56,544 bases of DNA from a virus, in the IMG/VR virus record IMGVR_UViG_3300042987_000761, positions 1 through 56,544 of that record; one strand, given 5' to 3'. The translations under genes were made by a program, and so were the position numbers. The notes beneath the pieces are model-generated. The model searched no databases. It was not told the DNA's origin and saw only the letters and a program-made list of their open reading frames with translations. Of the stretch, positions 35,936-54,723 are shown one piece after another (position 1 is the first letter of the stretch; every line of letters starts with the position of its first letter).

Positions 35936-36242
35936 TGTTCTTCTCCTTTAGCTTGGCTTCGATGGCGCGACCGAGGCTGTACTTCTTTCCTTCGTGGCTT
36001 TGCCCATAGATCATCATCATCTCCTCATCCGTCAACCCTTGCCATTCGCGCTGTAATCTACCTTTCTCATACCCCTGCGCCCAAGCGTTACTCACCTCGT
36101 GCTTCCACCATTGCTCTGAGCGTTGCTCTGGCTGCGCTAGTCGGGCGCGTAGGGATTCGATTGTGTCGCTGTAAATTTCTTTAGCATCACCCACATATGT
36201 CAACGCATACAGCGCCTCTTGCATTAGCTCTTTGTCGGTCAT
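35928..36242 (-). CDS. hypothetical accessory protein
   Basis: 104 aa. Contains QEALYALTYVGDAKEIYSDT and LTDEEMMMIYGQSHEG; such segments occur in many small phage accessory proteins of unknown function. Helical with a Lys-rich end. ATGA overlap with the upstream gene shows coupling. Confidence 0.72.
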   Translation of the reverse strand: MTDKELMQEALYALTYVGDAKEIYSDTIESLRARLAQPEQRSEQWWKHEVSNAWAQGYEKGRLQREWQGLTDEEMMMIYGQSHEGKKYSLGRAIEAKLKEKNSG

Positions 36243-36448
36243 GACGCACCCCTCTCGCGGATAGCAGAAGCGCAGTCTGCTGGATTCGCGTCAGCGTACT
36301 CATCGCCTAATCTGTCACAGACTGCTGCACACGCCTCGCGCTCCGCTTCTGCTACCAGCTTGGCAAAGCGTTCAAGACTAGGGTGTGAATAGTCATACAT
36401 CACCAGCCCAGCTTCCCGCGCCATGCGGACAATGTCATCTCTAGTCAT
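36239..36448 (-). CDS. hypothetical accessory protein
   Basis: 69 aa (TRDDIVRMAREAGLVMYDYS, KLVAEAEREACAAVCDRLGD). This pattern, with a Glu/Cys-rich helix, is widespread in phage and prophage small genes; no activity known. Overlaps its neighbours by 4-8 nt. Confidence 0.72.
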   Translation of the reverse strand: MTRDDIVRMAREAGLVMYDYSHPSLERFAKLVAEAEREACAAVCDRLGDEYADANPADCASAIRERGAS

Positions 36449-36638
36449 AGTGACCCCGAGGTGAAAATTTTACATCGCGCTTGGCGCTCATGTATTGACT
36501 GATGGTCTTACGTTCAAGGCATGGCTTGCACACCCAACGGGGTACGCCTCGGGTCGGTTTGACAACGCCACCTTCAGTAGATCGGACCGCTTGGCAGGAC
36601 GTGCAGAATCGGGTTTCAACGGTGGTGTCGGTCGTCAT
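36441..36638 (-). CDS. small zinc-ribbon protein
   Basis: 65 aa. CTSC (about 12-15) and CKPC (about 37-40) pairs, separated by a basic loop (VVKPTRGVPRWV), form a four-Cys zinc ribbon as in small phage HNH-like or transcription-associated zinc proteins, but no nuclease His residues are present. The C-terminus is basic. Probably binds nucleic acid. Confidence 0.75.
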   Translation of the reverse strand: MTTDTTVETRFCTSCQAVRSTEGGVVKPTRGVPRWVCKPCLERKTISQYMSAKRDVKFSPRGHYD

Positions 36639-36774
36639 ATGCGTCTTTCAGTAAGATGTAAGATATTCCGGCCATGCACATCAGCCAGAACCATTCGCTC
36701 GATTCGAGCGCCAGATAGAATCCGGCAGCGGATACCGCAGATGCGATGAACATATCCCAGTCCTCCATGCTCAT
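36616..36774 (-). CDS. 52-aa small membrane protein
   Basis: A short gene fills the 36639-36770 gap. ATG 36774 overlaps the upstream TGA by ATGA, and GGAG occurs nearby. Two hydrophobic helices (MFIASAVSAAGFYLAL and WFWLMCMAGISYILLK) are joined by a short polar turn, and the end is charged (DAYDDRHHR). It overlaps the zinc-ribbon gene by 23 nt. Probably an inner-membrane protein; function unknown. Confidence 0.65.
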   Translation of the reverse strand: MSMEDWDMFIASAVSAAGFYLALESSEWFWLMCMAGISYILLKDAYDDRHHR

Positions 36775-37127
36775 TCGAGATTCATCTTTTTGATCGCATT
36801 TCGCACCCGCATGACCCCGACGCCCTTATTCGGCGCGTCCAAGTACAGCGAGTGCGATAGGCCGTACCGATCGCACAGGACCGAGGGTGGCTCGGACGGA
36901 CCGGAAGGTACCTTCGTGGCCTTCGGCTCCACGGCGGGTACTGATGTATTCACCCGACCCGTCACGCGTCCCGCAGATACCGTCACGCCGCTCTTGGTGG
37001 TATACGACGTGTTCATCTTCTCGCCGTGCGGAGGCTTGGCCCACCACGGCACGTAATTCGGGTCGTTGAATGACCGGGGCTGGTGCTCCAGCAGCACCTG
37101 CTCGACGATTTCCTGATCAGTCGCCAT
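36771..37127 (-). CDS. hypothetical protein
   Basis: 118 aa starting at ATG 37127, which overlaps the upstream stop; longer upstream frames overlap the previous gene and look non-coding. N-terminal helix (TDQEIVEQVLLEHQPRS), Pro/Thr/Ser-rich middle, and C-terminal basic part (CDRYGLSHSLYLDAPNKGVG, RVRNAIKKMNLE). No domain recognised. Confidence 0.7.
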   Translation of the reverse strand: MATDQEIVEQVLLEHQPRSFNDPNYVPWWAKPPHGEKMNTSYTTKSGVTVSAGRVTGRVNTSVPAVEPKATKVPSGPSEPPSVLCDRYGLSHSLYLDAPNKGVGVMRVRNAIKKMNLE

Positions 37128-37308
37128 TGACGATGGCCTCCAATGCCTTGAATAGTTCCATGTCCGAGATGGGTGGTTTACCCTCGGGCTGCTCGAATGA
37201 CGCCTGTAGGCCCCGCTCATTTCGCAGCGCCCAGAATTTCACGATGAAGCGGCCATTGAATAACATCTCGCCGCTGAATTCACCATCAAAGATTCGGATT
37301 TTAGTCAT
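37117..37308 (-). CDS. small hypothetical protein
   Basis: 63 aa from ATG 37308, placed 7 nt after GGGAG and overlapping the upstream TAA. Beta-rich N-terminus (TKIRIFDGEFSGEMLFNGRF) and a short C-terminal helix. Compact single domain, unknown role. Confidence 0.7.
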   Translation of the reverse strand: MTKIRIFDGEFSGEMLFNGRFIVKFWALRNERGLQASFEQPEGKPPISDMELFKALEAIVNGD

Positions 37309-37510
37309 CGCCATACTCCCGCTCATATTGGTCCCATGCAAGGTCTGCTGCAGCCGCTTCATGTCTCGCCCAAGCCGAATCCAGCGCCATCTCGCGCAGG
37401 ACCCGACGCGCATCGGCTTCAGAGTCGAATGTCCAGTCGCCATTCATGTGAATGGTGGCATGAGTGATCTGGAATCGACCTTCGGGGGTGGTGATTACGG
37501 AATAAGTCAT
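37301..37510 (-). CDS. small hypothetical protein
   Basis: 69 aa. Beta N-terminus (SVITTPEGRFQITHATIHMN) then a charged helix (SEADARRVLREMALDSAWAR), acidic end. First gene after the 37559-37587 promoter, with the conserved leader (37518-37533) before its start. Confidence 0.72.
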   Translation of the reverse strand: MTYSVITTPEGRFQITHATIHMNGDWTFDSEADARRVLREMALDSAWARHEAAAADLAWDQYEREYGDD

Positions 37511-37558
37511 TGAAAATCTCCTCTATCATCTATGGGGTGCCGGATCGCCAGCACCCCT

Positions 37559-37587
37559 ATTATAGCACGGGTGTAGTATTTTGTCAA
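37559..37587 (-). promoter_or_regulatory. consensus sigma70 promoter (module 2)
   Basis: Minus strand TTGACA (37582-37587), 17-nt spacer, TGC then TATAAT (37559-37564). The transcript would begin with a 7-bp hairpin (GGGGTGC/GCACCCC, 37534-37557) and then the conserved leader. The -35 overlaps the stop of the upstream gene. Confidence 0.92.
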
Positions 37588-38054
37588 GCACCACGGAGAG
37601 CCTTGCGGATCATATTGCCGAGATTCATGCGCTGCATGCCGACATTCAGACCCTCATATTTCGCCTTCAGCGCGGTCGGCTTGATGTCCACCAGCTTGGC
37701 CGCGAATGCGTATACCTCGTCGATCGTCATGGCGCGGAGCTTGGCCGCGACTTCATCGCCGCAATCCAGTGCTCGCTTGAGCGATCCATCGGCGCGGGTC
37801 ACGCGGTTCGCCACATATTGCGGCAGGTAGAGGGAATCGACCACGCCATTCTTGCGCTCATTGATGTCGATCACCTTGCGAGCTTTCGGCTCGGCCTTCT
37901 TAACCGGCAGCGCTGCTGCCTCATGGACGTCGGTCACTTCGGTGCTTCGCACAGATACCTCCTTTTTGTCGTGCTGGCGGATGCGGACCCAGCCACGCGA
38001 TACTGTCAGGATTTCAACTGCTTTGCCGGTCTTGGTGTAGGTAGCGATTTGCAT
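37584..38054 (-). CDS. hypothetical basic protein
   Basis: 156 aa. N-terminal small beta domain (EILTVSRGWVRIRQHDKK), Lys/Ala-rich linker, and a C-terminal helical domain (DEVYAFAAKLVDIKPTALKA, NLGNMIRKAL). The basic linker and helical end suggest nucleic-acid binding. First gene after module 3 promoter, with leader at 38062-38077. No family recognised. Confidence 0.75.
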   Translation of the reverse strand: MQIATYTKTGKAVEILTVSRGWVRIRQHDKKEVSVRSTEVTDVHEAAALPVKKAEPKARKVIDINERKNGVVDSLYLPQYVANRVTRADGSLKRALDCGDEVAAKLRAMTIDEVYAFAAKLVDIKPTALKAKYEGLNVGMQRMNLGNMIRKALRGA

Positions 38055-38101
38055 TTTGTTTCTCCTCTATCATCTATGCTGGGAAAATCCCCAGTAACTA
38101 T

Positions 38102-38130
38102 ATTATACCACGGGTACGATACTTTGTCAA
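38102..38130 (-). promoter_or_regulatory. consensus sigma70 promoter (module 3)
   Basis: Minus strand TTGACA (38125-38130), 17-nt spacer ending TGG, then TATAAT (38102-38107). Hairpin CTGGG/CCCAG at 38079-38094 follows, then the conserved leader. The spacer (AAGTATCGTACCCGTGG) is nearly identical to that of module 4. Confidence 0.92.
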
Positions 38131-38366
38131 GTATTTGCGTGAGACTGTTGTTTCGGTGCAACAAGCGGGTCGAATTGAAATTCGCACATTTTGCCGAGTC
38201 TCGCCGCCGATCCCTCGCCGAACCACTCGTCGTAGTACCGCTCGACCATCGCAAGCGACATACGACTGAAATCCGGAAATTCGACATCGGGAGACGTATC
38301 TTCGATTTCCATCTCCATGATCCGCTTTTCCATCCACACGCGACGCATTTTTCTGGACATTCCCAT
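38127..38366 (-). CDS. small hypothetical protein
   Basis: 79 aa from ATG 38366, chosen because GAGGTGAT precedes it and the conserved leader lies just upstream; longer frames reach back into the upstream gene. Basic N-terminus (GMSRKMRRVWMEKRIMEMEI), then an acidic helix (SLAMVERYYDEWFGEG). Unknown function. Confidence 0.68.
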   Translation of the reverse strand: MGMSRKMRRVWMEKRIMEMEIEDTSPDVEFPDFSRMSLAMVERYYDEWFGEGSAARLGKMCEFQFDPLVAPKQQSHANT

Positions 38367-38395
38367 TTCATCACCTCTATCGTCTAAAATGTCAT

Positions 38396-38722
38396 TCATT
38401 TGCGATTCTGCCACGCTTTTTTGATGGCTTCCCACACCCCGGCCCATCCGACCGGCTCCACCTTCTGTATCGGCTCCGGATCGGCTGATCGGACCCCGAC
38501 GATTTCGCCGTACTTGATCTGCGGCACGAATGCGGTGGTCTTGGCCGCGATCGTCTCTTTACGCTTCTTCGACGCCGCTTTACGCTTTTTCTTGCCCACA
38601 ACCCACCGGGCGGTGTATACCTGCTGGCGGGTCAAGCCAAGTGCCTCGGCGACCACTTTCGATGGCGCTTTGGGATTCGCTTCGAGGTACGTTCGTACTC
38701 GATTGGTGATAGATGTCTTCAT
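38396..38722 (-). CDS. HTH DNA-binding protein
   Basis: 108 aa. An N-terminal winged-helix-like HTH (about 5-45: NRVRTYLEANPKAPSKVVAE, LGLTRQQVYTARWVV) is followed by a Lys/Arg-rich segment (GKKKRKAASKKRKE) and a polar tail. A nucleic-acid binding regulator is likely. It lies between promoter modules 3 and 4. Confidence 0.78.
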   Translation of the reverse strand: MKTSITNRVRTYLEANPKAPSKVVAEALGLTRQQVYTARWVVGKKKRKAASKKRKETIAAKTTAFVPQIKYGEIVGVRSADPEPIQKVEPVGWAGVWEAIKKAWQNRK

Positions 38723-38723
38723 G

Positions 38724-38966
38724 TCAGTCCTTCACGAAATAGAGGACGCAGACCGTGATCACGGACAGGATGATTCCCCATTCGAGGACTTCGATCCAGA
38801 TGTTGTGTCGCAGTGGCTGATCCTTCGGCAGCAGCACCCCTTGAATCATTCGCTCGTCATCGGACGGTACGAATCGAGGCTGCTCATATCGGATGCCGAT
38901 CTTGATTTTGCCCGTGTCGTACGGTACCAGCTTCGGCGTGTTGGTGGTGAAGTGTTCGTCGTTCAT
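38724..38966 (-). CDS. small C-tail-anchored membrane protein
   Basis: 80 aa. A polar N-terminal ~58 residues is followed by a single C-terminal membrane segment (EVLEWGIILSVITVCVLYFV) and a short charged end. Likely anchored in the inner membrane with the N-terminus in the cytoplasm. Unknown function. Confidence 0.75.
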   Translation of the reverse strand: MNDEHFTTNTPKLVPYDTGKIKIGIRYEQPRFVPSDDERMIQGVLLPKDQPLRHNIWIEVLEWGIILSVITVCVLYFVKD

Positions 38967-39250
38967 CAGACTAGCTCCATCGTCTTGATATTCATCTGCT
39001 CAGATGGCTTCATGAATTCCGGTAGCTTCTTCGGTCCGATGAATGCACGGACCTTTTCGGAATCCAGTATCATCTTGCTGGTGAAGGTAATCTCCACCGC
39101 GCAGTTCTTCGATGAGTAGGTGGCGGCACCACCCTCGCGGAACATCTCCTTCAGCTCCTTCTCGCGAGCGGTCAAGGCGCGTAGCTTCTCGCGCACGGTG
39201 ACCAATTCATCGACCATATCTTCGGTGATCACTACTTTAGACTTTGCCAT
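38966..39250 (-). CDS. hypothetical coiled-coil protein
   Basis: 94 aa. N-terminal helix (TVREKLRALTAREKELKEMF) then a beta part (SSKNCAVEITFTSKMILDSE) and FIGPKKLPEFMKPS. Similar small proteins are common near phage replication genes and sometimes annotated as nuclease-inhibitor-like, but I cannot assign activity. First gene after promoter module 4. Confidence 0.75.
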   Translation of the reverse strand: MAKSKVVITEDMVDELVTVREKLRALTAREKELKEMFREGGAATYSSKNCAVEITFTSKMILDSEKVRAFIGPKKLPEFMKPSEQMNIKTMELV

Positions 39251-39293
39251 TTTACCCTCTATTCGCTATGTTCGGGAAGTCCCCGTGATATGA

Positions 39294-39322
39294 ATTATAC
39301 CACGGGTACCATACCTTGTCAA
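39294..39322 (-). promoter_or_regulatory. consensus sigma70 promoter (module 4)
   Basis: Minus strand TTGACA (39317-39322), 17-nt spacer ending TGG, TATAAT (39294-39299), followed by a small hairpin (CGGG/CCCG, 39273-39285) and a diverged leader (ATAGAGGG). Lies directly after the DUF6378-like gene and starts the accessory operon. Confidence 0.9.
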
Positions 39323-39326
39323 GTAT

Positions 39327-39692
39327 CTACCACGTGACGGTGGTCGAAACGGTGTGACCATTATCAGACTGATAAGTCTTTACCAACGGCTCGTCGTGTG
39401 GACCGAGCAATTTGTCAAGCTCTAGATCGTCGGTCAGCCGGTCCCGCGCCAGCTGCGCGTAGCCCACTAGATCGACCCATGAATCCGGGTATCTCGGGTC
39501 GCCATTTACGATCCGCGCCATCTTGTGGCAGATCATATCAAGCGATTCTTTCATGTACGACGGCATGAATTCGTACGACCGGCCATGCCGGATTATATCC
39601 TTCAGATCGATCGCGAGTTTCGCCTGTTCGCGAAAGTCACCATAATTCTTAGCACGTTCACTTATGATCTTGTGTATTGACTCTTGACTCAT
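39327..39692 (-). CDS. DUF6378-like protein
   Basis: 121 aa. The conserved pattern ISERAKNYGDFREQAKLAID ... KESLDMICHKMARIVNGD ... DSWVDLVGYAQLARD matches DUF6378, a small helical phage family with conserved His/Asp that may be related to all-alpha nucleotide pyrophosphatases. GGGAG precedes ATG 39692. It is the last gene of the Z-nucleotide cluster, so a nucleotide-handling role is a reasonable but untested inference. Confidence 0.8.
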   Translation of the reverse strand: MSQESIHKIISERAKNYGDFREQAKLAIDLKDIIRHGRSYEFMPSYMKESLDMICHKMARIVNGDPRYPDSWVDLVGYAQLARDRLTDDLELDKLLGPHDEPLVKTYQSDNGHTVSTTVTW

Positions 39693-39825
39693 CGATTTTC
39701 TCCCTAGTGGTCATACGATGTTTGCATTTCACGTTCTTACACTCACGACGACGCTTTATCGAGTTATCAACATTTTTGTATGTCAATATCACGTGCGTCG
39801 CCGAATCACACTTCACACATTTCAT
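39658..39825 (-). CDS. NrdR-like zinc-ribbon small protein
   Basis: 55 aa. ATG 39825 overlaps the DatZ stop by ATGA, and the gene overlaps the DUF6378 start by 35 nt. The sequence (KCVKCDSATHVILTY, then IKRRRECKNVKCKHRMTTRE) matches the N-terminal zinc ribbon of NrdR (CxxC, RRReC, C, R-(F/M)-TT-x-E), but the ATP-cone that follows in NrdR is absent. NrdR represses ribonucleotide reductase operons. Here it could recognise DNA near nrd genes or act as a decoy; this is inference. Coupling to datZ suggests a nucleotide-pool role. Confidence 0.78.
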   Translation of the reverse strand: MKCVKCDSATHVILTYKNVDNSIKRRRECKNVKCKHRMTTREKIDESRVNTQDHK

Positions 39826-40358
39826 ATACCCATTTCCTTTCGGACTTCGAACAATCCCGATCGAATTTTCAAATCCGGATAGTCCTTCTCATACCGATCG
39901 ATCATATCATACATGGTATCATATAGGCCAGATAGTACATTTTTGGCGTGATCGCCGATGCCGTTATCCTTTAAGAACCAGATCGCTTCGAGTATGTCTG
40001 CAAGCTTCACTATCATACCATGCACAGTGCCTTCGGCTTGACGATACATGCCACCGTACTCGGGCATGAATTCTTGCTCGGCATCCAGCATATTCGCACC
40101 GCGTGATTCCAATGCACGTTTGAATGGCGTCGGCATATCACCGGTGTAAATCTCTACGATATCGTGCGACATCGCCCAAGATATCAAATCCAGCTGCTGC
40201 GCATAATGAAACCGGCCATTCCACTCGATCGCGGTAGCGATTCGCATCGCGATGCCGATCACGTTGAATGAATGCTCCGCTACCGATTGCGATTTTATCG
40301 TATTTACTATCGTCCATCGTTTGGTGTACGACGCACGTAACCACTCATTCGCTTTCAT
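39822..40358 (-). CDS. datZ: DatZ-like HD-domain dATP phosphohydrolase
   Basis: 178 aa from ATG 40358 (a GTG lies one codon before). HD-domain metal ligands are visible: H29 (SQSVAEHSFNV), H65-D66 (SHDIVEIYTGDMPTPFK) and D121 (KLADILEAIWFL). Length and motifs fit the YfbR/DatZ family. In Z-genome phages DatZ removes dATP so that the polymerase inserts 2-aminoadenine. YfbR-type 5'-nucleotidase is the alternative, but the location two genes after purZ supports DatZ. Overlaps neighbours on both sides. Confidence 0.9.
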   Translation of the reverse strand: MKANEWLRASYTKRWTIVNTIKSQSVAEHSFNVIGIAMRIATAIEWNGRFHYAQQLDLISWAMSHDIVEIYTGDMPTPFKRALESRGANMLDAEQEFMPEYGGMYRQAEGTVHGMIVKLADILEAIWFLKDNGIGDHAKNVLSGLYDTMYDMIDRYEKDYPDLKIRSGLFEVRKEMGI

Positions 40359-40590
40359 CACGTACTTTCATCATTGCATCTGCTTGTGCATATGCAGTTC
40401 GAGCATTTGATTCGAGATGATGCGGTTCGACATACCCTTTATTGTTTATCACTAGACTCTGTACTATCTTCGCTGCGAAGTAATCGCGCAATGTCATGCC
40501 GGTGTGCACATAACGCTGATTACTCTGCGGATGGTCGAATGTGAGTGGGAATGCTAGATACTCTTCTTTAGGTTCTACGTTATCAGACAT
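40345..40590 (-). CDS. unknown protein between mazZ and datZ
   Basis: 81 aa (FPLTFDHPQSNQRYVHTGMT, LRDYFAAKIVQSLVINNKGY). The GMTLRDYFAAK core is found in many small phage/prophage proteins of unknown function. It overlaps MazZ by 8 nt and DatZ by 14 nt, so it is translated with them. A role in the Z pathway is possible but its family also occurs outside Z phages. Confidence 0.78.
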   Translation of the reverse strand: MSDNVEPKEEYLAFPLTFDHPQSNQRYVHTGMTLRDYFAAKIVQSLVINNKGYVEPHHLESNARTAYAQADAMMKVRDESE

Positions 40591-41077
40591 GGCGCATAAT
40601 CCTCGTATTTTGGTCTACTCTCCAAGACCGTTGTTCATTAATATCCATCTTGTCCATGATGGCCTTCTGTATATCGATGCCGTTCATATGCGCGACATCG
40701 AGCAGCAGTATCATGATATCGCCGAATTCAAGTGGTGATTTCGGATCACGCGCATACTCACCAAGTTCCTCGTACAGCTTAAGCAGAACATCTGCGGTCG
40801 TGCGATTCGGGAAGTTCGAATCTGCCCATTCGACGATACGATCCTGCAGCTGCTTAATATCGGCACCAGTGCGCTTGTGGTATGCAGACACTGCTCGCAA
40901 TGCGAAATCGGCATTGATGTCGCACGAACCAGTTACACCCTTGTATATATCGCGTGTCTCGAAATCCGCGACCGGCAAGCCATTGGCATCGACCAGCAAT
41001 GCGGGATTGCCTTCGTGCTTGCGCCATGGTAGCGGGTTCATCTCATCGGTGTACCCGATCGCCTCAAAAATCGGCAT
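40583..41077 (-). CDS. mazZ: MazZ-like MazG pyrophosphohydrolase with extra N-terminal domain
   Basis: 164 aa. ATG 41077 follows AGGGAG with 7-nt spacing and overlaps the end of purZ. The MazG signature is at residues 103-120: EELGE, then EFGD (ExxE ... ExxD metal site). In phage S-2L-type systems MazZ turns (d)GTP into dGMP, the PurZ substrate. About 80 N-terminal residues (NPALLVDANGLPVADFET, CDINADFALRAVSAYHK) form a separate small domain that is not part of the MazG core. The substrate is inferred from the PurZ context. Confidence 0.85.
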   Translation of the reverse strand: MPIFEAIGYTDEMNPLPWRKHEGNPALLVDANGLPVADFETRDIYKGVTGSCDINADFALRAVSAYHKRTGADIKQLQDRIVEWADSNFPNRTTADVLLKLYEELGEYARDPKSPLEFGDIMILLLDVAHMNGIDIQKAIMDKMDINEQRSWRVDQNTRIMRHV

Positions 41078-42086
41078 AATCAATCTCCCTAATATCTGCG
41101 TCATCCGGACCGAAGCAAAGGTAATCCGGTCCCCATCCAGTACCGTGCATCCTACGAATGATGTCGGTCAGTGTGTCCTCGTTACAATAATCCGCGAATG
41201 TCAGCACCGTCTTGGTCGATAAACCCGCGCAGTGTAGCATCGCGTGTTGGTATTGTACATCCGAGAATTCGAAGATGCGACGCGGCAGCTTGGTCACCGT
41301 GGTGAGTTCAGGCTCGCGGCCCAAATCGCCCCACGATATCTCTTTCTGCCCCGGATACGCCGGACCCGATGTGCCATCACGATTGTTCACGCGAATCGGG
41401 AACGTACGCGCCACCATCCATACTGTGATTGCTGGTGCCCACACGAACGGTAATCCACAGTCTGCCGCGATCTGCCACGGCGTCACGTCGCGTGATGTGC
41501 AGTACGGCCAGTCACCATGATACAGCGACAGCCCGAATCCTTGTGCGCCTTCGACCAGCAGCGTCCTCGACTCGTTCAGGATGCGGTCGTATTCGAATCT
41601 ATCGACCACGAACTGCCCCAATGGGTGATTCGCGAATCCGAGCTTGGCTACCGCTTTCGAATCCGGATCGCGCATGATCCGATCGACCATCGCCGCGCCC
41701 ACGCCTTTGGTGGTGGATCCAATTTTGGTCATGCCGAGCGATTTCTCGCGCTCCGCGTGGTCATCACGCACTACCGCCGCGTGTTCATGAATCACCAGCC
41801 GCTGACCGCCGGTCATATACTGTTGTATTTCTCGCTGCAGGGTACCCGCATGAATCAGCGATCCCGGTCCGAGCATGACGGTCTTCACCGTCGGACCCGA
41901 TACGCCGACCGGCAGCTGCTGCACCATCATCTTCAGGCCCCGTGCGCGGTCATTGTAGGTATGACCAGCTTGTGTGCCATACGAACATACCACCGTGTCA
42001 TACGGTACGCGCTTGGCGAGCCAGCCGGACACGCCGCCCTTGCCACACGAACCCCACATGCCGTCCATCGTTAAATCGATCTTCAT
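41064..42086 (-). CDS. purZ: PurZ, N6-succino-2-amino-2'-deoxyadenylate synthase
   Basis: 340 aa, adenylosuccinate synthetase family. The key P-loop region reads MWGSCGKGGVSG: Ser13 stands where PurA has its catalytic Asp (WGDEGKG), the change that defines PurZ and lets it use dGMP instead of IMP. His42 (GTQAGHTYND) is the general acid. Other family motifs: GSTTKGVGAA (123-132), EGAQG (179-183), SRDVTP and TKLPRRIFEFSD (265-276). It joins Asp to dGMP to make the precursor of 2-aminoadenine (Z); host PurB then finishes it. About 90 residues shorter than bacterial PurA, as usual for phage PurZ. AGAGGG lies before the ATG. Confidence 0.96.
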   Translation of the reverse strand: MKIDLTMDGMWGSCGKGGVSGWLAKRVPYDTVVCSYGTQAGHTYNDRARGLKMMVQQLPVGVSGPTVKTVMLGPGSLIHAGTLQREIQQYMTGGQRLVIHEHAAVVRDDHAEREKSLGMTKIGSTTKGVGAAMVDRIMRDPDSKAVAKLGFANHPLGQFVVDRFEYDRILNESRTLLVEGAQGFGLSLYHGDWPYCTSRDVTPWQIAADCGLPFVWAPAITVWMVARTFPIRVNNRDGTSGPAYPGQKEISWGDLGREPELTTVTKLPRRIFEFSDVQYQHAMLHCAGLSTKTVLTFADYCNEDTLTDIIRRMHGTGWGPDYLCFGPDDADIREIDYADF

Positions 42087-42113
42087 GAATGCCCTCTATA
42101 GGTTAGAATGTGT

Positions 42114-42122
42114 ATTATAACA
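42114..42122 (-). promoter_or_regulatory. possible extended -10 promoter for purZ
   Basis: Minus strand TG-T-TATAAT (42114-42122) lies in the 58-nt gap between the DNA polymerase gene and purZ. No good -35 hexamer is found 16-18 nt upstream, so it would rely on the extended -10. It could give the Z cassette its own transcript. Confidence 0.4.
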
Positions 42123-42144
42123 TAATCGTACGGGTGACGTAGTA

Positions 42145-43965
42145 TCAGCCTTTCGCCGTGTACCAGTTGTCACCCACACCCCAATCGCAGGTGATCGGCA
42201 CCCGGAACCGCATTTCGCACGACTCTCCGTCGAATGTCGTATATATCTTCGCTATCGCCTCCGGATTCGCGTCCTTTTCGAGCGATATCCCGACTTCATC
42301 ATGTACGGTCAGCAGCAGCCGCCCCGCGTCATGCTCGGTCAGATACCTGTCGATTTCGATGAGTTTGACCTTCATCGCATCGGCGCTGGTGCCTTGGTAG
42401 ATCAGCCCCGACGCCTTGTGCGTAAACTGCCCACCCGGAAACCGGATGTGACGACCCATCATGGTCTGCACGTACCCCCGCTGTTTAGCGATCGCGGATG
42501 CCTTCTGCTGCATGTTGCGCATTCCCGGATTCGCGGTGTGGTACTTCTCGAAGATCGCCAGCGCCTCCGGTCCGGGCTTCACGAATGGCCGACCATCCGG
42601 CATCGTCTCTTCGGTGCACGGTAGTCCGATTTCCTGCGCCAATCGACCAGCGCCCATGTTGAATGCCAGCCCGAGATTAATCGCTTTGGACGATGGGCCA
42701 CCCGCATATTCCGCATTTCGAGGAATTCCGGTCATGTCGGATACTAGCTGGTGGAAATCCAAGTTCGGGTTGTCCTTGTATGCCTTGAGAATGGCGGGGA
42801 CTTGCCCGTAGTGATTAGCGACTCGAAACTCGAACTGCGACCAATCCATACCAAGCCATGCTGCTCCTTCGTCCGGGAGAAAAATGGGGCGTACCAGCGA
42901 CTTGATTTCTTTATCCCGAGACGGTATCTGCTGCAATGCAGGATTAGTAACTGATAGCCGACCGGTTCCGGTGCCAGCTTCAGCGTCGTTTTTAGTCTGG
43001 TTATAGTTACAGTGAATAACACCGTCATTGTGATGTCCCAATATGTGACCAGACAGGAATGTGTCGCGGGTTTTAAGCATTTTGCGCAGGTCGAGGATCA
43101 TCTTCGCCGCCGGATGCTTCATGCGCCGCAAGCACTCTGCATTGATCGACGCCTTGCCTCCTTCGGTCTTATCAGCGCGGGTTCCGTCATTCAGGTACCA
43201 CTCACCGTCTATCTCCAGCTTCGGCTCGAATAGCTTCGCAATCGATCCGGAAGGGTTCGGGTTGACCTCGAATCCGGCCATGGTATTCAGATCCCGCTGA
43301 GCGGTCTCGATGCGCTTCGTGAGGCCACGGACGGCCTCCTCTGCCCGATCGATGTCCACCCGCACACCGCCCTCTTCCATCCGGATGATGACCGGCAGCA
43401 GCCGACGCTCCAGCTGATGAACCTTCGACAGCTTGCCGATTTCACCTTCCTGCCACCGGTACAGCTTCATCGTCGCGAGCGCATCCTGTTTCGCATACCG
43501 TGCCACCATGTCCTCAGGCGCACGAGATATATTTGGCATCTGAGCGTTGCGAGTAGCACGACCACCGAAAAGGGTAGCCATCTCCTCATATATCTCCGAA
43601 TCCTTGCGAGTACCTGCATATTTACGAGCCAAGAAATCAAGTTCATAGGTAGGTTCGTGTTCGGATATCAGAGCGGCGCGGATCATGGTGCAATCGATCC
43701 GATCGTCCGGCAGCTGCACCCCCGCCTCGCGCAGGAAGTGGTAGTCGAACTTCAGATTATGCCCGACCCACACCGTGCGCGGATTGTTCGCGATCAGATC
43801 ACTTAGCCAATCGATAAATTGAGGAGCCGTTCGAACATCGAAATACCAAGTATCTTCGGTCTCCGTACACAGCGAAACCCCAAAAACGCGGTCGTTCCAC
43901 CAGTGCAGCCCGGTCGTCTCCGTGTCGATCACCAACACTTTCGGATTCTCTATGCGCGGAAACAT
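42145..43965 (-). CDS. dpoZ: family A DNA polymerase with 3'-5' exonuclease (DpoZ candidate)
   Basis: 606 aa. Exonuclease motifs: D14-x-E16 (VIDTETTGL), D74 (HNLKFDYHF), Y157-x3-D161 (RYAKQDA). Polymerase motifs: GTGRLSVTNPALQQIPSR (333-350), motif A D374-x4-E379 (MDWSQFEFR), O-helix K427 (SSKAINLGLAFNMG), motif C VHDEVG (554-559). There is no 5'-3' exonuclease domain. In the O-helix, Pol I Phe762 is Leu431, Tyr766 is Phe435 and the Arg754 position is Gly423. Adjacent to purZ, it fits the DpoZ polymerases of Z phages that favour dZTP. The substrate preference is inferred. Confidence 0.92.
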   Translation of the reverse strand: MFPRIENPKVLVIDTETTGLHWWNDRVFGVSLCTETEDTWYFDVRTAPQFIDWLSDLIANNPRTVWVGHNLKFDYHFLREAGVQLPDDRIDCTMIRAALISEHEPTYELDFLARKYAGTRKDSEIYEEMATLFGGRATRNAQMPNISRAPEDMVARYAKQDALATMKLYRWQEGEIGKLSKVHQLERRLLPVIIRMEEGGVRVDIDRAEEAVRGLTKRIETAQRDLNTMAGFEVNPNPSGSIAKLFEPKLEIDGEWYLNDGTRADKTEGGKASINAECLRRMKHPAAKMILDLRKMLKTRDTFLSGHILGHHNDGVIHCNYNQTKNDAEAGTGTGRLSVTNPALQQIPSRDKEIKSLVRPIFLPDEGAAWLGMDWSQFEFRVANHYGQVPAILKAYKDNPNLDFHQLVSDMTGIPRNAEYAGGPSSKAINLGLAFNMGAGRLAQEIGLPCTEETMPDGRPFVKPGPEALAIFEKYHTANPGMRNMQQKASAIAKQRGYVQTMMGRHIRFPGGQFTHKASGLIYQGTSADAMKVKLIEIDRYLTEHDAGRLLLTVHDEVGISLEKDANPEAIAKIYTTFDGESCEMRFRVPITCDWGVGDNWYTAKG

Positions 43966-43970
43966 AGCGA

Positions 43971-44240
43971 TCAGAATGGTAGGTCATCGTAGAATTCCTT
44001 GCCCACTTCGCGACTGGTCGTGCTGGCCGAAGGCGGTGGGTCCTTGCGATTGATCGCGATCGAGAAGTATTTCTGCCCATCGAGCTTCGATCCGGGTCTG
44101 CCTTCCTTAACCCACGCGGACATCCAGTATTCGACGCCCTCGACGTTGATGGTGCCGGTATACTCGGGATGCGTGTCCTTCTCTTTGCGCTTGTTACGAG
44201 CGAGCATGCCGGAATTGGTGTTGTCGTATTCTTTGTTCAT
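43971..44240 (-). CDS. short protein with SSB-like C-terminal tail
   Basis: 89 aa from ATG 44240 (GGAG 8 nt upstream). Lys-rich N-terminus, a small beta core (TGTINVEGVEYWMSAWVKEG, KYFSIAINRKD) that could be an OB-type fold, then EFYDDLPF at the C-terminus. The last residues copy the acidic tip of bacterial SSB (DDDIPF) that recruits replication proteins. Located between the UvrD-like helicase and DNA polymerase. Candidate mini-SSB or SSB-tip mimic. Confidence 0.75.
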   Translation of the reverse strand: MNKEYDNTNSGMLARNKRKEKDTHPEYTGTINVEGVEYWMSAWVKEGRPGSKLDGQKYFSIAINRKDPPPSASTTSREVGKEFYDDLPF

Positions 44241-44254
44241 ATGCTAATCTCCAG

Positions 44255-45670
44255 TTAAATTTTATACCCATTAAGACCTTCGACGATATCTAGGGTATGC
44301 TTAGCTCTCGTCATCCCGACATACCAGACGCGAATCTCGTCATCGGGCTTTTTCTCCGCAGTTTCGGTCACTTTCTGCGTAGTATCCGTAAGTAATATGA
44401 CTCTATCGGCTTCATGACCTTTTGATGCATGAATAGTAGAAAGCCGCAGACGAGGCACACTATCGAGATTAGCATCACGATAAAAGTCAATAACCCTAAA
44501 TGGAATATCGAGTGCAATATAGAACGGCTTAGATAGTATGGCCTCATAATCGTTCTTCTCAAGATGTCCTCTAGTCTCTGGCGTCGCCACGTTATATAAC
44601 GCGGTGCGTTCGGATTCCTGCAATATCGCGCCACTCTTTAACTTGTTATACGCCATCACGCCCTTGGCATATTTATTCTGATACATGCCCGGTCTGCCCG
44701 ATTCTCGCAGATAAGGAATGCGTCTGTCAATCAGGTCCTTTTCGATCTCTCGCAAGACCGAATGCGTCCGTCCCAACAATAGGATATCCTCTTGTGGTGA
44801 TATCGCCACCGAGTTGATGTTACCGTGTACCTGTACGGATCCCATATCCGGTCGGGGATTGAACTCCTTATCGACGCGCAGAGTGATTCGACGTATGAGC
44901 GCTTGCGATCTTTGGTGCACACTAACAGGTAATCGATGTGATACCGATAACACTTGGCTATCACCGCTGTGCTTCGCGATGAATCGAGCCATGCCGTGTG
45001 GATCGGCCCCCGACCATGCGAAGATCGCCTGATCGTCATCACCCGCGATATGGATTTCTTCTGCACCTTTCGCAAAGCAGTCGATGACCCGCCACTGAAG
45101 AGGTGATAAATCCTGTGCTTCATCGACGAATATAATTTCGGCGTCAGGGTGCGACTTCTTTTTGGCGACTCGCTCCAGCATGTCGGTGAAGTCGTAAAAT
45201 CCATAAGTATCCTTCCAGTCAGAATACGCTCGAAGAAACATATTGAACTCGGCGCGGGTTCCGGGTCTGGTGCTGTAGTCATACACGATCGCAGGATCAG
45301 TGAAGGTATTCCGTGCATAATTGATGATGTCCAGATAAGAATCGCCGTCTGCTCGTTCTTCGTCGTCCTCGGGTGACTTGCCGATCACCGGCACACCGAC
45401 GAGTGACGAGAATTCGCGCAGCTTTGCAGGGTCCACCACCTGTGACTGCTTGAGATTCAGCAGACGGAAGCACATCGAGTGAATGGTGGATACATTGTTG
45501 CTACGTTTAAGGCCCAAGCGTGACAATGCCTCGCTCGCCGCCGCACGTGTGAATGACACGAATGCGATACGCTCGGCTTGGACACCGGATGACTTGGCTT
45601 CGGCGACGCGACGTAACATCTCGGTCGTCTTACCAGTCCCCGGTGGGCCGTAGATAGCGTAGACTTGCAC
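44255..45670 (-). CDS. UvrD/PcrA-like SF1 DNA helicase
   Basis: 471 aa from GTG 45670, which overlaps the upstream TAG. Motifs: Walker A IYGPPGTGKTT (6-16), Ia VSFTRAAASEAL, motif II IFVDEAQD, motif III IAGDDDQAIFAWSGADP, motif IV/V region and VI (STIHASKGHEADRVILL, YVGMTRAKHTL). It is a 3'-5' SF1A helicase, shorter than UvrD and lacking most of the 1B/2B inserts. Probably unwinds the replication fork together with the SNF2-like protein. Confidence 0.92.
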   Translation of the reverse strand: MQVYAIYGPPGTGKTTEMLRRVAEAKSSGVQAERIAFVSFTRAAASEALSRLGLKRSNNVSTIHSMCFRLLNLKQSQVVDPAKLREFSSLVGVPVIGKSPEDDEERADGDSYLDIINYARNTFTDPAIVYDYSTRPGTRAEFNMFLRAYSDWKDTYGFYDFTDMLERVAKKKSHPDAEIIFVDEAQDLSPLQWRVIDCFAKGAEEIHIAGDDDQAIFAWSGADPHGMARFIAKHSGDSQVLSVSHRLPVSVHQRSQALIRRITLRVDKEFNPRPDMGSVQVHGNINSVAISPQEDILLLGRTHSVLREIEKDLIDRRIPYLRESGRPGMYQNKYAKGVMAYNKLKSGAILQESERTALYNVATPETRGHLEKNDYEAILSKPFYIALDIPFRVIDFYRDANLDSVPRLRLSTIHASKGHEADRVILLTDTTQKVTETAEKKPDDEIRVWYVGMTRAKHTLDIVEGLNGYKI

Positions 45671-45954
45671 TAGCGGTACCTCGGTACGCAGGTCACATCG
45701 ACCACCACATCTGCGGTGTAATTCGACACTTTACGCTTGCTGAACACCATCGCGGCTCGCAGACCACTCGACTCGCATTCCTGCACCGCGAGAATGACTT
45801 CATTCCTGCTCATCGGGTGAATGCTCTTATCGAGTATCAAGTCTTGTGTTCCATCGGTGTTGCTGCTGGCGTAATATTTACTCGGCTTGTCGGATGAACA
45901 TCCATACATGATGAAGATGAATAGCATCACGCAGCATAAAAATAATATTCTCAT
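45670..45954 (-). CDS. early-region lipoprotein
   Basis: 94 aa. Signal RILFLCCVMLFIFIMYGC with lipobox MYGC and +2 Ser; mature domain about 75 aa with two Cys (VQECESSGL, VDVTCVPRY). GAGG lies 6 nt before ATG 45954. Unusual among replication genes. Early-expressed phage lipoproteins often block superinfection, which is a candidate role here; no direct sign. Confidence 0.78.
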   Translation of the reverse strand: MRILFLCCVMLFIFIMYGCSSDKPSKYYASSNTDGTQDLILDKSIHPMSRNEVILAVQECESSGLRAAMVFSKRKVSNYTADVVVDVTCVPRYR

Positions 45955-46049
45955 ATCTATCCTCTAGTAGTAGGTGGGGTACTCACCGCACAGGATTTAT
46001 CCTTAACAATCGTGGTTGACGTTAAGCAAGTGCAGCTTTCCCCCGTACA

Positions 46050-46787
46050 TCAGAACTCTTCTGCGACCTCTGCAGATTCGTCGTAATCAGCGTTGACCTT
46101 CACGCCGCCCTTCGAGATAACCTCGTACAGCTTCTCGGCGCGGTCGTATATCTCCTTCGACACGAATCCGATCGGGGTTACGTTGAAGTTATGATACTGT
46201 TCATTCCGAGCGTTGGTCTCGACGACCGAAGACAGCTTGTACGCACGTGAGAATGAGTCGGTCTCGGTCAGGCGCATGAGCGAATTCCAGCGCTTGGACA
46301 CTTTGACCTTCGACTTGGCCATCGATACCACTGCTTCCGACCATTTGTCACCATGCAGGACCAGCACGAAATGCTGCGCGGTATCCGAGATTTCGAGACC
46401 TTCCTCGTTCAGACCCGCGATCGCGGCTTCCGCGTCTGATCGGGTGTTGAATGCTCCACGGAATCCGTTGGTGCCGCCACCCATCTTGCGATCCTTCCAT
46501 ACCAAGAACTGCTTCTGGTAGTACACCGGAACGACCATCACTTCGAGACCGTATAACTCGCGTGTGACGTTGTTGAACATCATGCCCTCATCCGCACCTT
46601 CGATGTAGGCAGGGTCCGATTTCTTTCTAGCCGGTGATAGCGCCTGAATGAGTTCGATTCGCGGAATGATGACGTCTTCGGATCCGACGTTTTCAGCTCC
46701 TCGATTCGACCCCTTCTTCAGAAATTCTGGTATGTCGTCGGTCACTGCGAATGCTTCAACCTTCGTCACTGCGTTGCTTTTAGCCAT
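46050..46787 (-). CDS. putative replication-associated protein with acidic tail
   Basis: 245 aa. Pattern SEDVIIPRIELIQALSPARK, EVMVVPVYYQKQFLVWKDRK, VVSMAKSKVKVSKRWNSLMR is a phage family near helicase/primase genes with no agreed name. The C-terminus (DYDESAEVAEEF) is acidic and ends in Phe like T7 gp2.5-type single-strand binding proteins, so ssDNA binding is a reasonable guess. AAGGAG precedes the ATG. Not confirmed by fold. Confidence 0.72.
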   Translation of the reverse strand: MAKSNAVTKVEAFAVTDDIPEFLKKGSNRGAENVGSEDVIIPRIELIQALSPARKKSDPAYIEGADEGMMFNNVTRELYGLEVMVVPVYYQKQFLVWKDRKMGGGTNGFRGAFNTRSDAEAAIAGLNEEGLEISDTAQHFVLVLHGDKWSEAVVSMAKSKVKVSKRWNSLMRLTETDSFSRAYKLSSVVETNARNEQYHNFNVTPIGFVSKEIYDRAEKLYEVISKGGVKVNADYDESAEVAEEF

Positions 46788-46817
46788 GTTAATTCTCCTT
46801 AAATGGCGTGGATATCA

Positions 46818-46835
46818 GACACACCGAAGTGTGCC
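46818..46835 (-). other. UUCG-loop hairpin in replication operon
   Basis: In the 70-nt gap between 46050-46787 and 46858-47292, minus strand GGCACAC-TTCG-GTGTGTC forms a 7-bp stem with a very stable tetraloop. No U-run follows, so it is more likely an mRNA stability or processing element than a terminator. Confidence 0.7.
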
Positions 46836-46857
46836 ACTTACTACCGCTTGCGCGGAT

Positions 46858-47292
46858 TCAAGACTTGGTGATCGATGCACGAGTGAATGGTGACACATTC
46901 AACAGCTCTTCCGGCACTACTTCACCCTCGCGGACCATGTTCTTAACGGTTGCCTTCAACGTGCTTGGATTGATATTCGGCTGTATCAGATCGCCGCGCC
47001 CATTATCGCGTAGCCATGTGTAGAACAGCTCCTTGCTGCCCTCCTTGATCGATACATGCATATCTGCGGTGAGCGACACACGCCCCACGCCCTCGACATT
47101 CAAATTACGAATACCTTGATCTTCCATCTCTTGCGGTATCTTGGTGATACGCAGAAAGTCGAAATGCTTATTAAATCTCTTGAGTTCAGCCTCGGCGTTG
47201 TCCTTGTCGGTCTGCACACGACGCATCTCGCGGATGAGTTCCATCAGCGTCATGCCGTCGTACATCGAGAATTCGTTAGTATCAAATGACAT
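46858..47292 (-). CDS. conserved small replication-region protein
   Basis: 144 aa. N-terminal coiled coil (LMELIREMRRVQTDKDNAEA), then RNLNVEGVGRVSLTADMHVS and YTWLRDNGRGDLIQPNINPS, a pattern I recall from small proteins in phage replication operons with no assigned activity. Overlaps the upstream gene by 11 nt. Confidence 0.75.
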   Translation of the reverse strand: MSFDTNEFSMYDGMTLMELIREMRRVQTDKDNAEAELKRFNKHFDFLRITKIPQEMEDQGIRNLNVEGVGRVSLTADMHVSIKEGSKELFYTWLRDNGRGDLIQPNINPSTLKATVKNMVREGEVVPEELLNVSPFTRASITKS

Positions 47293-47617
47293 CGCGATCC
47301 CCTTCGAGGTCTATGCGAATCGGAGTGTATGTGTGATCGCGGTTGTTCCACTTCAGGAAATTGAACGAGCTGCCCTTTTCACGCGCAAGCGCCATAGCAA
47401 TGCAAGCGATGATAGGGCTACCAGATGGAGCGAGGTAATCTTCAGCCGGATTAAAATTTCTAAGACGGTCGCGAATATTGTTGACAAGTTTAACATTATG
47501 TAATGAACTCAGTGAACCGGAAACTTCTGAAGCGCATAAGAATACGACATCACCATAACGCTCGGCTGGGCGATAATTGGCAACGGCGACTTCCTGCGTG
47601 ATGTATACTGTAGGCAT
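47282..47617 (-). CDS. hypothetical protein with own promoter
   Basis: 111 aa from ATG 47617, set by GAGGATAGAG just upstream; the upstream extension lies in the promoter. Sequence (YITQEVAVANYRPAERYGDV, VVFLCASEVSGSLSSLHNVK) is alpha/beta, no known domain. It is the first gene after the promoter at 47639-47667. Confidence 0.75.
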   Translation of the reverse strand: MPTVYITQEVAVANYRPAERYGDVVFLCASEVSGSLSSLHNVKLVNNIRDRLRNFNPAEDYLAPSGSPIIACIAMALAREKGSSFNFLKWNNRDHTYTPIRIDLEGDRDVI

Positions 47618-47638
47618 CTCTATCCTCTCGGTGGAATA

Positions 47639-47667
47639 ATTATAGCACATTATGCTCAAGCGATCAA
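47639..47667 (-). promoter_or_regulatory. sigma70-type promoter with extended -10
   Basis: Minus strand TTGATC (47662-47667), 17-nt spacer ending TGC, TATAAT (47639-47644). It starts inside the 3' end of the helicase gene and gives internal transcription of the replication operon. Confidence 0.75.
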
Positions 47668-49383
47668 TGCCTCGACGTTTTTACTATTGATGCTCTCGCG
47701 TACGAACTCCGATACATTCTTTTTGTCTTGCAAAGCGGACAATATCGCGCCATCGACCGACTTCTCCATCACCAGATCGATGTACAACACCGACTTGGTC
47801 TGACCGATCCGATGCGCACGATCTTCCGACTGATCGCGTTCGACGTAATTGAACGAATTGCTAAAATACACTACTAATTCGGCGGCGGTCATATTCAGAC
47901 CGGTGCCCCCGGTCGCCGCGTTCCCGACCAGAAATCGTGCCTTCTTCTTCTGGAATAGCTCCTGCACGTTGTGATCGCGATCCTTTTCGGACACCTGACC
48001 GTATATCTCGACCACTTGGTCGTGACCATACTTGGCGCGTAGAGCCTCGGACACCATATGAATCTCTTCGATGAATCGGCACCACACGATAGTGGACACT
48101 TGATATTCCTCGGCGATACTGAGCAGTTCCTCTATCTTCGGATTCCGACCGGGGATTCGCGAGTGTTCGTACTTTGAGGGATTGAACAAATCCGGATTCC
48201 TTTCAAATGTGACGATACCTCCGCATATCTCTTGGAGTCGTAGCATTCTCTCCAACACCGTATTGACTGTGAGTCCTCGATCCCCCACGACTGCACGGTT
48301 TTTCTTAGCAATGTCTGTATACAGGCTTTTCTGCTCTTCATTAAACTGCACTTCTCGGATTTCATACACTTTCGGTGGTAATTCGGTTAATACTTCGGAT
48401 TTACGTACTTGATACACATATGGTGACACTAACTCGATCAACTCCTCCATATTCTGATAGCCGATGATCTGCTTACCCTCGAACCCGCCCATTACCGCGT
48501 AGCGGTTCCTGAATGAGAAGAAGTCGCCGCTGCCGATGATATTCTCATCGAGGAATTCGAACTGCATATACAGGTCGAGTGGCGCATTCGCGATCGGAGT
48601 GCCGGTCATGACCAGCTTGTACTTGGCACCACGCCCGATCTTAACCGCATTCTTGGCTCGCACCGCATTATGGGTCTTAATCATATGCGCTTCATCAACG
48701 ATCATGCCAACGCGAGTGGACGTGTTCACGAATCTCTCGGCGTAAGTAGCTGCCGATCCCGCAGCCAGCGATTCAGTACCGACTATCAGTACCTTCAAAG
48801 CGTCGGTGGTGCTGGTGTTGAATGCGTCGAATATTTTAGGCTTGGTGGTGTCCAGTACCATCACTTCATACGGCACCGGGCAGTGAATCGCGAATTCGCG
48901 CTCCCAGTTCATGCGAGTCGAGAACTTGGTCACCACCAACAATCGATCTACATCGCCTTCCATATGATACGCCGAGAATAGATCGATCGAAGTCTTGGTC
49001 TTACCAGTACCCATATCCATGTAGTACGCGAATGACTCCTTTTTCCACGAGTACGACAGCGCTTTAAGCTGATACGCTCGCGGCAGCGTCTTGAATGGAT
49101 ACGTCGATGGGAATTCAGCGATCGGCGCGATCGACTTTACCTGTACAGCATTTCTGGCAACGTCATATGCCTCTTTAGACCAGAACTGATTAGGAAAGCG
49201 GTCAAGCATATAGGCGGCATTTGTTCGCAGCGCAGGTGCGGTCCAAACGCGACGCTTTGCATCCCAACGACGGTTAGGAATGGCACGAATGTGATCAATC
49301 GACCAAGGCGGCGATATGATGATGAACCGACCTGATTTCGGGTCATACGTGATATCAATATTCTGGCGTGAAGTCTGGAGCAT
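47656..49383 (-). CDS. SNF2-like SF2 helicase/ATPase
   Basis: 575 aa from ATG 49383 (GGGAGAAG upstream), overlapping the primase by 29 nt. N-terminal ~60 residues look like a small HARP-type domain (GRFIIISPPW, RRWDAKRRVWTAP). Walker A MGTGKTKTSID (124-134), DEAH (230-233), motif III VMTGTPIANAPLDL, motifs V-VI GGTGLNMT and ERDQSEDRAHRIGQTK. This is SNF2/SWI-type architecture, common in phages as annealing or fork-remodelling helicase. Coupled to the primase. Confidence 0.9.
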   Translation of the reverse strand: MLQTSRQNIDITYDPKSGRFIIISPPWSIDHIRAIPNRRWDAKRRVWTAPALRTNAAYMLDRFPNQFWSKEAYDVARNAVQVKSIAPIAEFPSTYPFKTLPRAYQLKALSYSWKKESFAYYMDMGTGKTKTSIDLFSAYHMEGDVDRLLVVTKFSTRMNWEREFAIHCPVPYEVMVLDTTKPKIFDAFNTSTTDALKVLIVGTESLAAGSAATYAERFVNTSTRVGMIVDEAHMIKTHNAVRAKNAVKIGRGAKYKLVMTGTPIANAPLDLYMQFEFLDENIIGSGDFFSFRNRYAVMGGFEGKQIIGYQNMEELIELVSPYVYQVRKSEVLTELPPKVYEIREVQFNEEQKSLYTDIAKKNRAVVGDRGLTVNTVLERMLRLQEICGGIVTFERNPDLFNPSKYEHSRIPGRNPKIEELLSIAEEYQVSTIVWCRFIEEIHMVSEALRAKYGHDQVVEIYGQVSEKDRDHNVQELFQKKKARFLVGNAATGGTGLNMTAAELVVYFSNSFNYVERDQSEDRAHRIGQTKSVLYIDLVMEKSVDGAILSALQDKKNVSEFVRESINSKNVEALIA

Positions 49384-50911: not shown

Positions 50912-50940
50912 GGTTTCCTCTAGTGTGCTCTATGCGACGC

Positions 50941-50969
50941 ATTATACCACAACTGCCACCCATTGACTA
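50941..50969 (-). promoter_or_regulatory. promoter of primase/replication operon
   Basis: Minus strand TAGTCA (50964-50969, 4 of 6 consensus), 17-nt spacer ending TGG, TATAAT (50941-50946). Its -35 overlaps that of a plus-strand promoter (50963-50991), so the two are back-to-back and may compete. Confidence 0.75.
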
Positions 50970-50991
50970 GTAGTAGCCATTGTGGTACACT
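50963..50991 (+). promoter_or_regulatory. divergent plus-strand promoter
   Basis: TTGACT (50963-50968), 17-nt spacer ending TGG, TACACT (50986-50991). It points away from the primase into the iteron module and is the only convincing plus-strand transcription signal in the window. Start expected near 50998. Confidence 0.6.
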
Positions 50992-50997
50992 ATATGG

Positions 50998-51042
50998 GTC
51001 GGGTTCCGCGCAACGCGGGTCTCAGTATCATTTCTTCCCGAC
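50998..51042 (+). ncRNA. candidate structured RNA at 5' end of plus-strand transcript
   Basis: Beginning at the predicted start, GTCGGG (50998-51003) can pair with CCCGAC (51037-51042) and, inside, CCGCG (51006-51010) with CGCGG (51014-51018) across a CAA loop. No convincing gene follows on this strand. Could be an origin primer RNA or an antisense regulator. Speculative. Confidence 0.35.
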
Positions 51043-51050
51043 AATGGCTG

Positions 51051-51327
51051 TATCCGCTGTATCCGGCATAATGGAACAGGTCATGGAACGGCGAGAATCA
51101 AGACGGACGCGGCTCTTGGGCATTTGTATCCGCTGTTCCACGCGCGTGACCCCCTTATCCTGTCGCAAGCTTGCGACAGAGAACTTCCAGACGACAGAAC
51201 ACCGGATACAACGGATACAAGAAAACTGGAATATGTCTCACGTATGTGCGTGTATTAAGTCTCAAGAGAAGTGAGCGCTAATTAGCCTGTATCCGTTAGC
51301 AGCCTTATAATACGGATACAACGGATA
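51051..51327. repeat. iteron-like module, copy B (inverted relative to copy A); intergenic region B
   Basis: The gap 50912-51440 holds TATCCG pair 51051/51060, ATGGAAC pair 51071/51083 (12-bp spacing), TATCCG 51127, the 18-bp palindrome at 51161, CGGATA pair 51203/51212, TATCCG 51290 and CGGATA pair 51313/51322. Read in reverse complement the order and spacing follow copy A over about 280 bp. No convincing gene lies here; a 76-codon plus-strand frame is not conserved in frame with copy A. Confidence 0.9.
51161..51178. repeat. perfect 18-bp palindrome, copy B
   Basis: TGTCGCAAGCTTGCGACA, identical to 32619-32636. It is centred in the module in both copies. Confidence 0.95.
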
Positions 51328-51375
51328 CAGACTTGGGGTATCCGCCGTGCCGTGAGTGACCCCTGAATAAGAAGA

Positions 51376-51411
51376 CGCCCCCGAGAGACCACGGAAGATA
51401 TCTCGGAGGCG
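51376..51411 (-). terminator. hairpin terminator after internal virion genes
   Basis: On the minus strand CGCCTCCGAGA pairs with TCTCGGGGGCG (11 bp, one T-G) around a 14-nt loop, followed by TCTTCTTATTC. It lies 30 nt past the stop at 51441 and would end the structural transcript before region B. Confidence 0.7.
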
Positions 51412-51440
51412 CTGGAAAGGAGGGATAGCTACTAATATAG

Positions 51441-52982: not shown

Positions 52983-52990
52983 GATAGTCC

Positions 52991-54712: not shown

Positions 54713-54723
54713 GGTGTCACCAT

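Follow-up and report, generated by a model that had tools for sequence, protein, structure and literature searches.

The window, which is the whole 56,544-base stretch of DNA analysed, encodes on its minus strand a protein that is very likely the PurZ of a phage replacing adenine with 2-aminoadenine (Z); its Ser13 is the standard PurZ state and its phosphate-donor site is unusual. Judged by the residues of that site, the lineage is a new PurZ variant.

The purZ gene and its neighbours

The purZ gene lies within a series of genes on the same strand:

39822..40361, minus strand: datZ, HD-domain dATP triphosphohydrolase (phrog_7076, E 7.5e-31; PF12917)
40345..40590, minus strand: ORF of 81 aa between mazZ and datZ (phrog_2201; similarity match in 7 of 16 window-clade loci)
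40583..41104, minus strand: mazZ, dATP/dGTP pyrophosphohydrolase-like (PF04447, E 5e-11; phrog_801)
41064..42086, minus strand: purZ, succino-amino-deoxyadenylate synthase, 340 aa (NF038379, phrog_1211, PF00709; PDB 6FM1/6FKO/7ODX best by sequence and fold)
42145..43965, minus strand: dpoZ, aminoadenine-incorporating family A DNA polymerase (NF038380, 812 bits, above the curated cut-off of 500)
43971..44240, minus strand: single-strand DNA binding protein (phrog_18154)
44255..45670, minus strand: UvrD-like helicase (phrog_1967, PF00580)

The 340-residue PurZ protein (ORF 41064–42086, minus strand) begins MKIDLTMDGMWGSCGKGG and matches phrog_1211 (E 8.8e-64) as well as PF00709. Its best PDB matches by sequence, the phiVC8 enzyme (6FM1, 6FKO) and S-2L PurZ (7ODX), are about 40% and 37% identical to it, respectively, over the structural alignment and have the same fold. 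An AlphaFold2 model of the window PurZ (45 aligned rows; mean pLDDT 93.2, pTM 0.92) gives Z scores of 45.4 against 6TNH and 6FM1 and 43.9 against 7ODX, versus 37.7 or less against PurA entries (the highest being Pyrococcus horikoshii PurA with GTP and IMP, 5K7X, which shares the fold) and 37.1 against PurZ0, where scores within 1 of each other are taken as tied. The P. horikoshii and E. coli PurA enzymes use IMP and are not accompanied by a phage Z cluster. Together with the neighbouring DpoZ, MazZ and DatZ, the sequence and fold matches uphold the assignment of the gene to PurZ in the preliminary description.

NF038379 is the top NCBIfam match at 278.3 bits, below the curated cut-off of 300, which is an annotation threshold and not a biochemical feature. 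The phiVC8 (397), S-2L (350) and L045 (309) proteins pass it, as does the PurZ0 of Gordonia phage Archimedes, and the sister protein L210 likewise falls under it (259.4 bits).

In the trees, the window PurZ is a member of the PurZ clade and is separated from PurZ0 and PurA. Membership in PurZ0 is ruled out by this position and by the neighbours, which are of the DatZ/MazZ and not the DutZ/DmtZ types. The actinophage PurZ0 of Archimedes (PDB 7VF6) shares Ser13 and a donor-site Asp with the window protein but is about 30% identical to it, has a GSEAKG P-loop and dUTPase-type neighbours instead of DatZ/MazZ, and groups with archaeal rows. What is established here for the window PurZ is its sequence, alignment, clade, synteny and the fold of its model; a chemistry using dGMP and aspartate, with a role in Z-DNA, is what we infer.

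Matches to DpoZ, MazZ and DatZ are present in 16/16 window-clade loci and in all seven fetched loci of the related L210 group, which represent four contigs, some fetched twice. With the chosen start codon the mazZ frame overlaps the 3′ end of purZ, and the MazZ-like protein (40583–41104) has about 75 additional N-terminal residues ahead of its Pfam match; in two other loci (L014 and L015) the MazZ match begins after purZ. The 56,544-base virus record also has genes for terminase, primase and helicase, together with weak similarity to internal virion and ejection proteins, and the phage is probably podovirus-like. No tRNA genes were found in the 56,544-base window, and a near-identity DNA search of phage records returned no match to window positions 36000–56000.

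The phosphate-donor site

Residues were compared across 168 distinct homologs, comprising E. coli PurA, 11 window-clade, 76 other PurZ-type, 4 PurZ0 and 76 cellular rows; the other PurZ-type rows include 74 from phage or viral records and two from MAG contigs (L110 and L111). Three codons of the window gene specify residues that depart from those of the other PurZ enzymes at the donor and base sites:

41190..41192, minus strand: Asp299 codon (Asn in 75 and Gln in 1 of the 76 other PurZ-type rows; Q308 in S-2L)
41199..41201, minus strand: Thr296 codon (Asn in 76/76 other PurZ-type rows, where S-2L N305 contacts the donor adenine; Thr in E. coli PurA)
41970..41972, minus strand: Gln39 codon (Asn in 75/76 other PurZ-type rows; S-2L N49, in the dGMP base pocket)

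The window clade deviates from near-invariant PurZ residues at positions 10 (Met for Gln), 14 (Cys for Thr), 39 (Gln for Asn), 296 (Thr for Asn) and 299 (Asp for Asn), as well as at 18, 193, 246, 294 and 324. The preliminary description had stated that all other family motifs were kept; His42 and EGAQG are indeed retained, but the statement is wrong for donor-site residues 296 and 299, for Asn39, and for Glu14 of GDEGKG, which is Cys. The window protein has Ser at the Asp13 position, His42, a TTVTK loop and MazZ/DatZ-type neighbours in common with the phiVC8 and S-2L PurZ enzymes. In those two the donor site carries Asn/Gln and Asn, the Ser is followed by Thr and residue 39 is Asn; the window has Asp299, Thr296, Cys14 and Gln39. 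The window PurZ does not fit the ATP-using subtype, whose donor base site carries Asn and either Asn or Gln (N305 and Q308 in S-2L).

Both Asp299 and Thr296 are present in 11/11 distinct window-clade rows, which share 71–99% identity. An Asp also occupies column 299 in all four PurZ0 rows, in E. coli PurA (Asp333) and in most cellular relatives. The placement of the PurZ0 Asp in this column is reproduced by hhalign independently of MAFFT, while the match to E. coli Asp333 is that of the MAFFT alignment, the hhalign alignment with E. coli having ended at residue 233. E. coli PurA thus shares the donor-site Thr and Asp with the window protein but has the catalytic Asp13 that the latter does not. 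The pocket reverts only partly, with Phe297 kept where E. coli PurA has Lys. The L210 group (L210 and L213–L215, four contigs, 53% identical) has Gln39, Asp299 and either Ser or Thr at 296.

PurZ0 was reportedly found by Tong et al. in 2023 to use GTP as its donor. For E. coli PurA, the substitution Asp333Asn shifts specificity from GTP to XTP, as Kang et al. 1994 state in their title. In published descriptions of S-2L PurZ, N305 and Q308 contact the adenine of the phosphate donor, and both the introduction of PMC12884076 and the work on phiVC8 and S-2L give ATP as the PurZ donor; section 24 of PMC12884076 prints the PurZ0/PurZ donors as ATP/GTP, which looks swapped relative to its own introduction, and ATP is taken here as the PurZ donor. 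Searches of the open-licence literature, which most subscription papers fall outside, found no description of an Asp-type donor site within PurZ. The pair Asp299/Thr296 would restore a guanine-recognising Asp of the PurA/PurZ0 type where other phage PurZ enzymes hold the adenine of ATP. Because Asp299 aligns with the GTP-specifying Asp333 of E. coli, we lean slightly towards the prediction that GTP or dGTP is the phosphate donor of the window PurZ.

There is a substantial, although less than even, probability that the window PurZ is an ordinary ATP-using enzyme, with Asp299/Thr296 a tolerated drift and ATP or dATP used as in phiVC8 and S-2L. Such use would agree with the best trees, where the window lineage is nested among Asn-type PurZ enzymes, and with the retention of Phe297 and Gly326-Pro327, which match the S-2L stacking and backbone contacts. 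However, both adenine-contacting side chains have changed together and are held in all 11 rows, T/S296 and D299 recur in the 53%-identical L210 group, and the residues gained are ones that GTP-using enzymes have.

History of the donor-site aspartate

Phylogenetic trees were computed without columns 13, 14, 39, 296 and 299. The Asp clade forms one group with supports of 100/96 (72 rows), 88/99.8 (67 rows) and 100/100 (64 rows), and it is nested in a larger, otherwise Asn-type clade of 35 rows (100/100, 72-row tree) or 25 rows (100/100, 64-row tree). As the Asp clade nests inside Asn-type PurZ, the trees suggest that Asp299 is more probably a reversion than a retained residue. We tentatively propose, at a confidence somewhat short of even, that PurZ of the window lineage and the L210 group, in phages with DatZ, MazZ and DpoZ, switched donor from ATP to GTP by regaining the PurA-type Asp.

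It is unlikely that the Asp is instead ancestral, the window lineage being the deepest PurZ branch that kept GTP while other PurZ enzymes moved to ATP. The AU tests had as their alternative a tree with all Asp rows standing together, the Asp being retained from the outgroup. An initial result against retention (p 0.0066; 25 rows including the odd row L342) was weakened by other row sets, with p 0.335 when L342 and four other long rows were left out and p 0.059 when seven deep cellular rows were added and others thinned; rejection is thus not firm. The minimum numbers of donor-residue changes in these three sets are 3, 2 and 2. PurZ0 and most cellular relatives carry Asp, and an ancestor with Asp would be PurZ0-like or archaeal-like. 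Set against ancestral Asp are the 100/100-supported placements of the Asp clade inside the Asn-type clade and the earlier branching of the Asn-type rows L116, L028/L114/L115, L113 and L112 in the 64-row tree.

Two further viral PurZ-like proteins have atypical motifs. A PurZ of the window's larger clade (L226:3803–4858) has a PurZ0-like P-loop (GSEAKGS), SAGHTY and the donor motif LTFCNY, and no MazZ match was found next to its purZ. The divergent L342 has GSTGKG and the donor motif GFCDY, and may have acquired a donor-site Asp independently.

Serine 13

The residue to which the preliminary description drew attention is encoded within 42045–42052, which covers the Ser13 and Cys14 codons and two bases of the Gly12 codon:

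42045..42047, minus strand: Cys14 codon, TGT (Thr in 75/76 other PurZ-type rows; Glu in E. coli PurA and PurZ0)
42048..42050, minus strand: Ser13 codon, TCG, at the place of the PurA catalytic Asp13 (alignment)

Translation gives the P-loop GSCGKG and not GDEGKG, as had been read, and MAFFT places Ser13 on the Asp of E. coli PurA GDEGKG, in agreement with the described replacement of the catalytic Asp. All 21 coding sequences of the lineage, 18 of them distinct, encode Ser13, and between them they use every one of the six Ser codons (TCN and AGY). Because six codons spell one invariant Ser, residue 13 is under selection and is no error; sequencing error or decay at this residue is ruled out, and the claim that the gene is not a decayed PurA holds. 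A PurA or decayed PurA with IMP activity, for which PF00709 family kinship could be cited, is very improbable given the replacement of Asp13 by Ser, the PurZ identity of the nearest structures, the position of the gene between DpoZ and MazZ/DatZ, and the invariance of active-site residues while codons change silently.

The Ser13 of phage PurZ is already known and is the standard PurZ state: PMC12884076 (2026) includes a comparison in which Ser is at the PurA Asp13 position in 147/147 phage PurZ (100%), and Asp13 is 99% conserved in the E. coli-type PurA group. In a viral scan with patterns outside the P-loop, located in the C-terminal half, Ser13 was present in 79/79 loci (69 distinct sequences), the best 80 of 393 relatives having been kept. 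In the homolog alignment it is present in 11/11 window-clade, 76/76 other PurZ-type and 4/4 PurZ0 rows, and in 71/76 cellular rows (4 Gly, 1 gap); this last figure is not a frequency, since one of the two patterns used in the cellular scan (best 80 of 463) demanded GS. The claim that the substitution separates PurZ from PurA therefore stands for phage PurZ versus canonical PurA and fails for the cellular homologs collected, most of which share Ser13.

The further claim that Ser13 explains the use of dGMP is too strong, although a partial role is plausible. In the S-2L PurZ structure as described in PMC8342488, a distance of 3.7 Å separates the Ser hydroxyl from the 2-amino group, more than the postulated hydrogen bond would allow; the polarity of the Ser may still contribute, and V241 together with a displaced Arg/Lys is held responsible for discrimination against ribose. 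Ser13 would give the 2-amino group room and a polar environment, as one determinant among several. It neither defines PurZ nor alone explains dGMP use.

Chromosomal Ser13 paralogs in bacteria

Twelve bacterial genomes that had supplied loci to the cellular scan were searched with PF00709. Each of the 12 has a full-length match with the canonical PurA P-loop GDEGKG and, in addition, a chromosomal paralog whose P-loop is GSEGKG. As these paralogs coexist with PurA, Ser13 alone does not separate PurZ from cellular PurA-like proteins; its use as a PurZ diagnostic was dropped, and Ser at position 13 cannot by itself be used to call Z-genome genes. The GSEGKG paralogs (e.g. Nostoc L168, Terriglobus L136) share Ser13 and the donor-site Asp with the window protein but are on another branch of the tree and lie in cellular gene clusters, where their companions are genes for a nucleotide kinase, a dCTP-deaminase-like protein or DUF7002.

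These genes recur in bacterial clusters (L168:2897–7155, L143:2920–7703, L146, L125, L166 and others), with an RNase_H_2/nucleotide-kinase-like gene upstream of the Ser13 gene in L168. Grouped by similarity, a dCTP-deaminase-like gene is downstream of the Ser13 gene in 28/78 loci, and a deoxynucleoside kinase is present in 11/78. A second cluster type (L132:929–4579, L136, L142, L158, L174 and others) includes an IrrE/M78 peptidase-like gene (14/78 loci), a DUF7002 gene (18/78) and, in L132, a kinase–PurA-like fusion with Ser13. For the chromosomal Ser13 clusters PADLOC gave no more than weak matches, and a literature search found nothing on the GSEGKG clusters; they are possibly a nucleotide-based system of their own. 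A separate PurZ-like group of about 437 residues occurs in gut Clostridia MAGs (L137, L139, L140, L145, L147, L161, L163, L165, L167, L173), with a P-loop GMWGSCGKGK, of which GMWGSCGKG is identical to that of the window, but its residue 39 is Asn and its donor site has Gln/Glu.

Proposed Z-DNA metabolism and phosphate donor

From homology and synteny, MazZ would make dGMP from dGTP, PurZ would join dGMP and aspartate to give N6-succino-2-amino-dAMP, and host enzymes would make dZTP; DatZ would remove dATP and DpoZ would polymerise dZTP. If GTP is used as the donor, a side activity reported for S-2L PurZ, the consumption of dATP, would be lost in the window enzyme, and dATP removal would be left to DatZ. 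If the proposed switch is true, the GTP-to-ATP step suggested for PurZ0-to-PurZ evolution would be reversible. Sister PurZ enzymes that are about 50–54% identical and share the same gene cluster differ at the residue that sets GTP versus XTP use in E. coli PurA, and provide a natural comparison. The donor-site Asp makes it testable whether phage PurZ enzymes use ATP as a fixed adaptation to the metabolism of Z-DNA.
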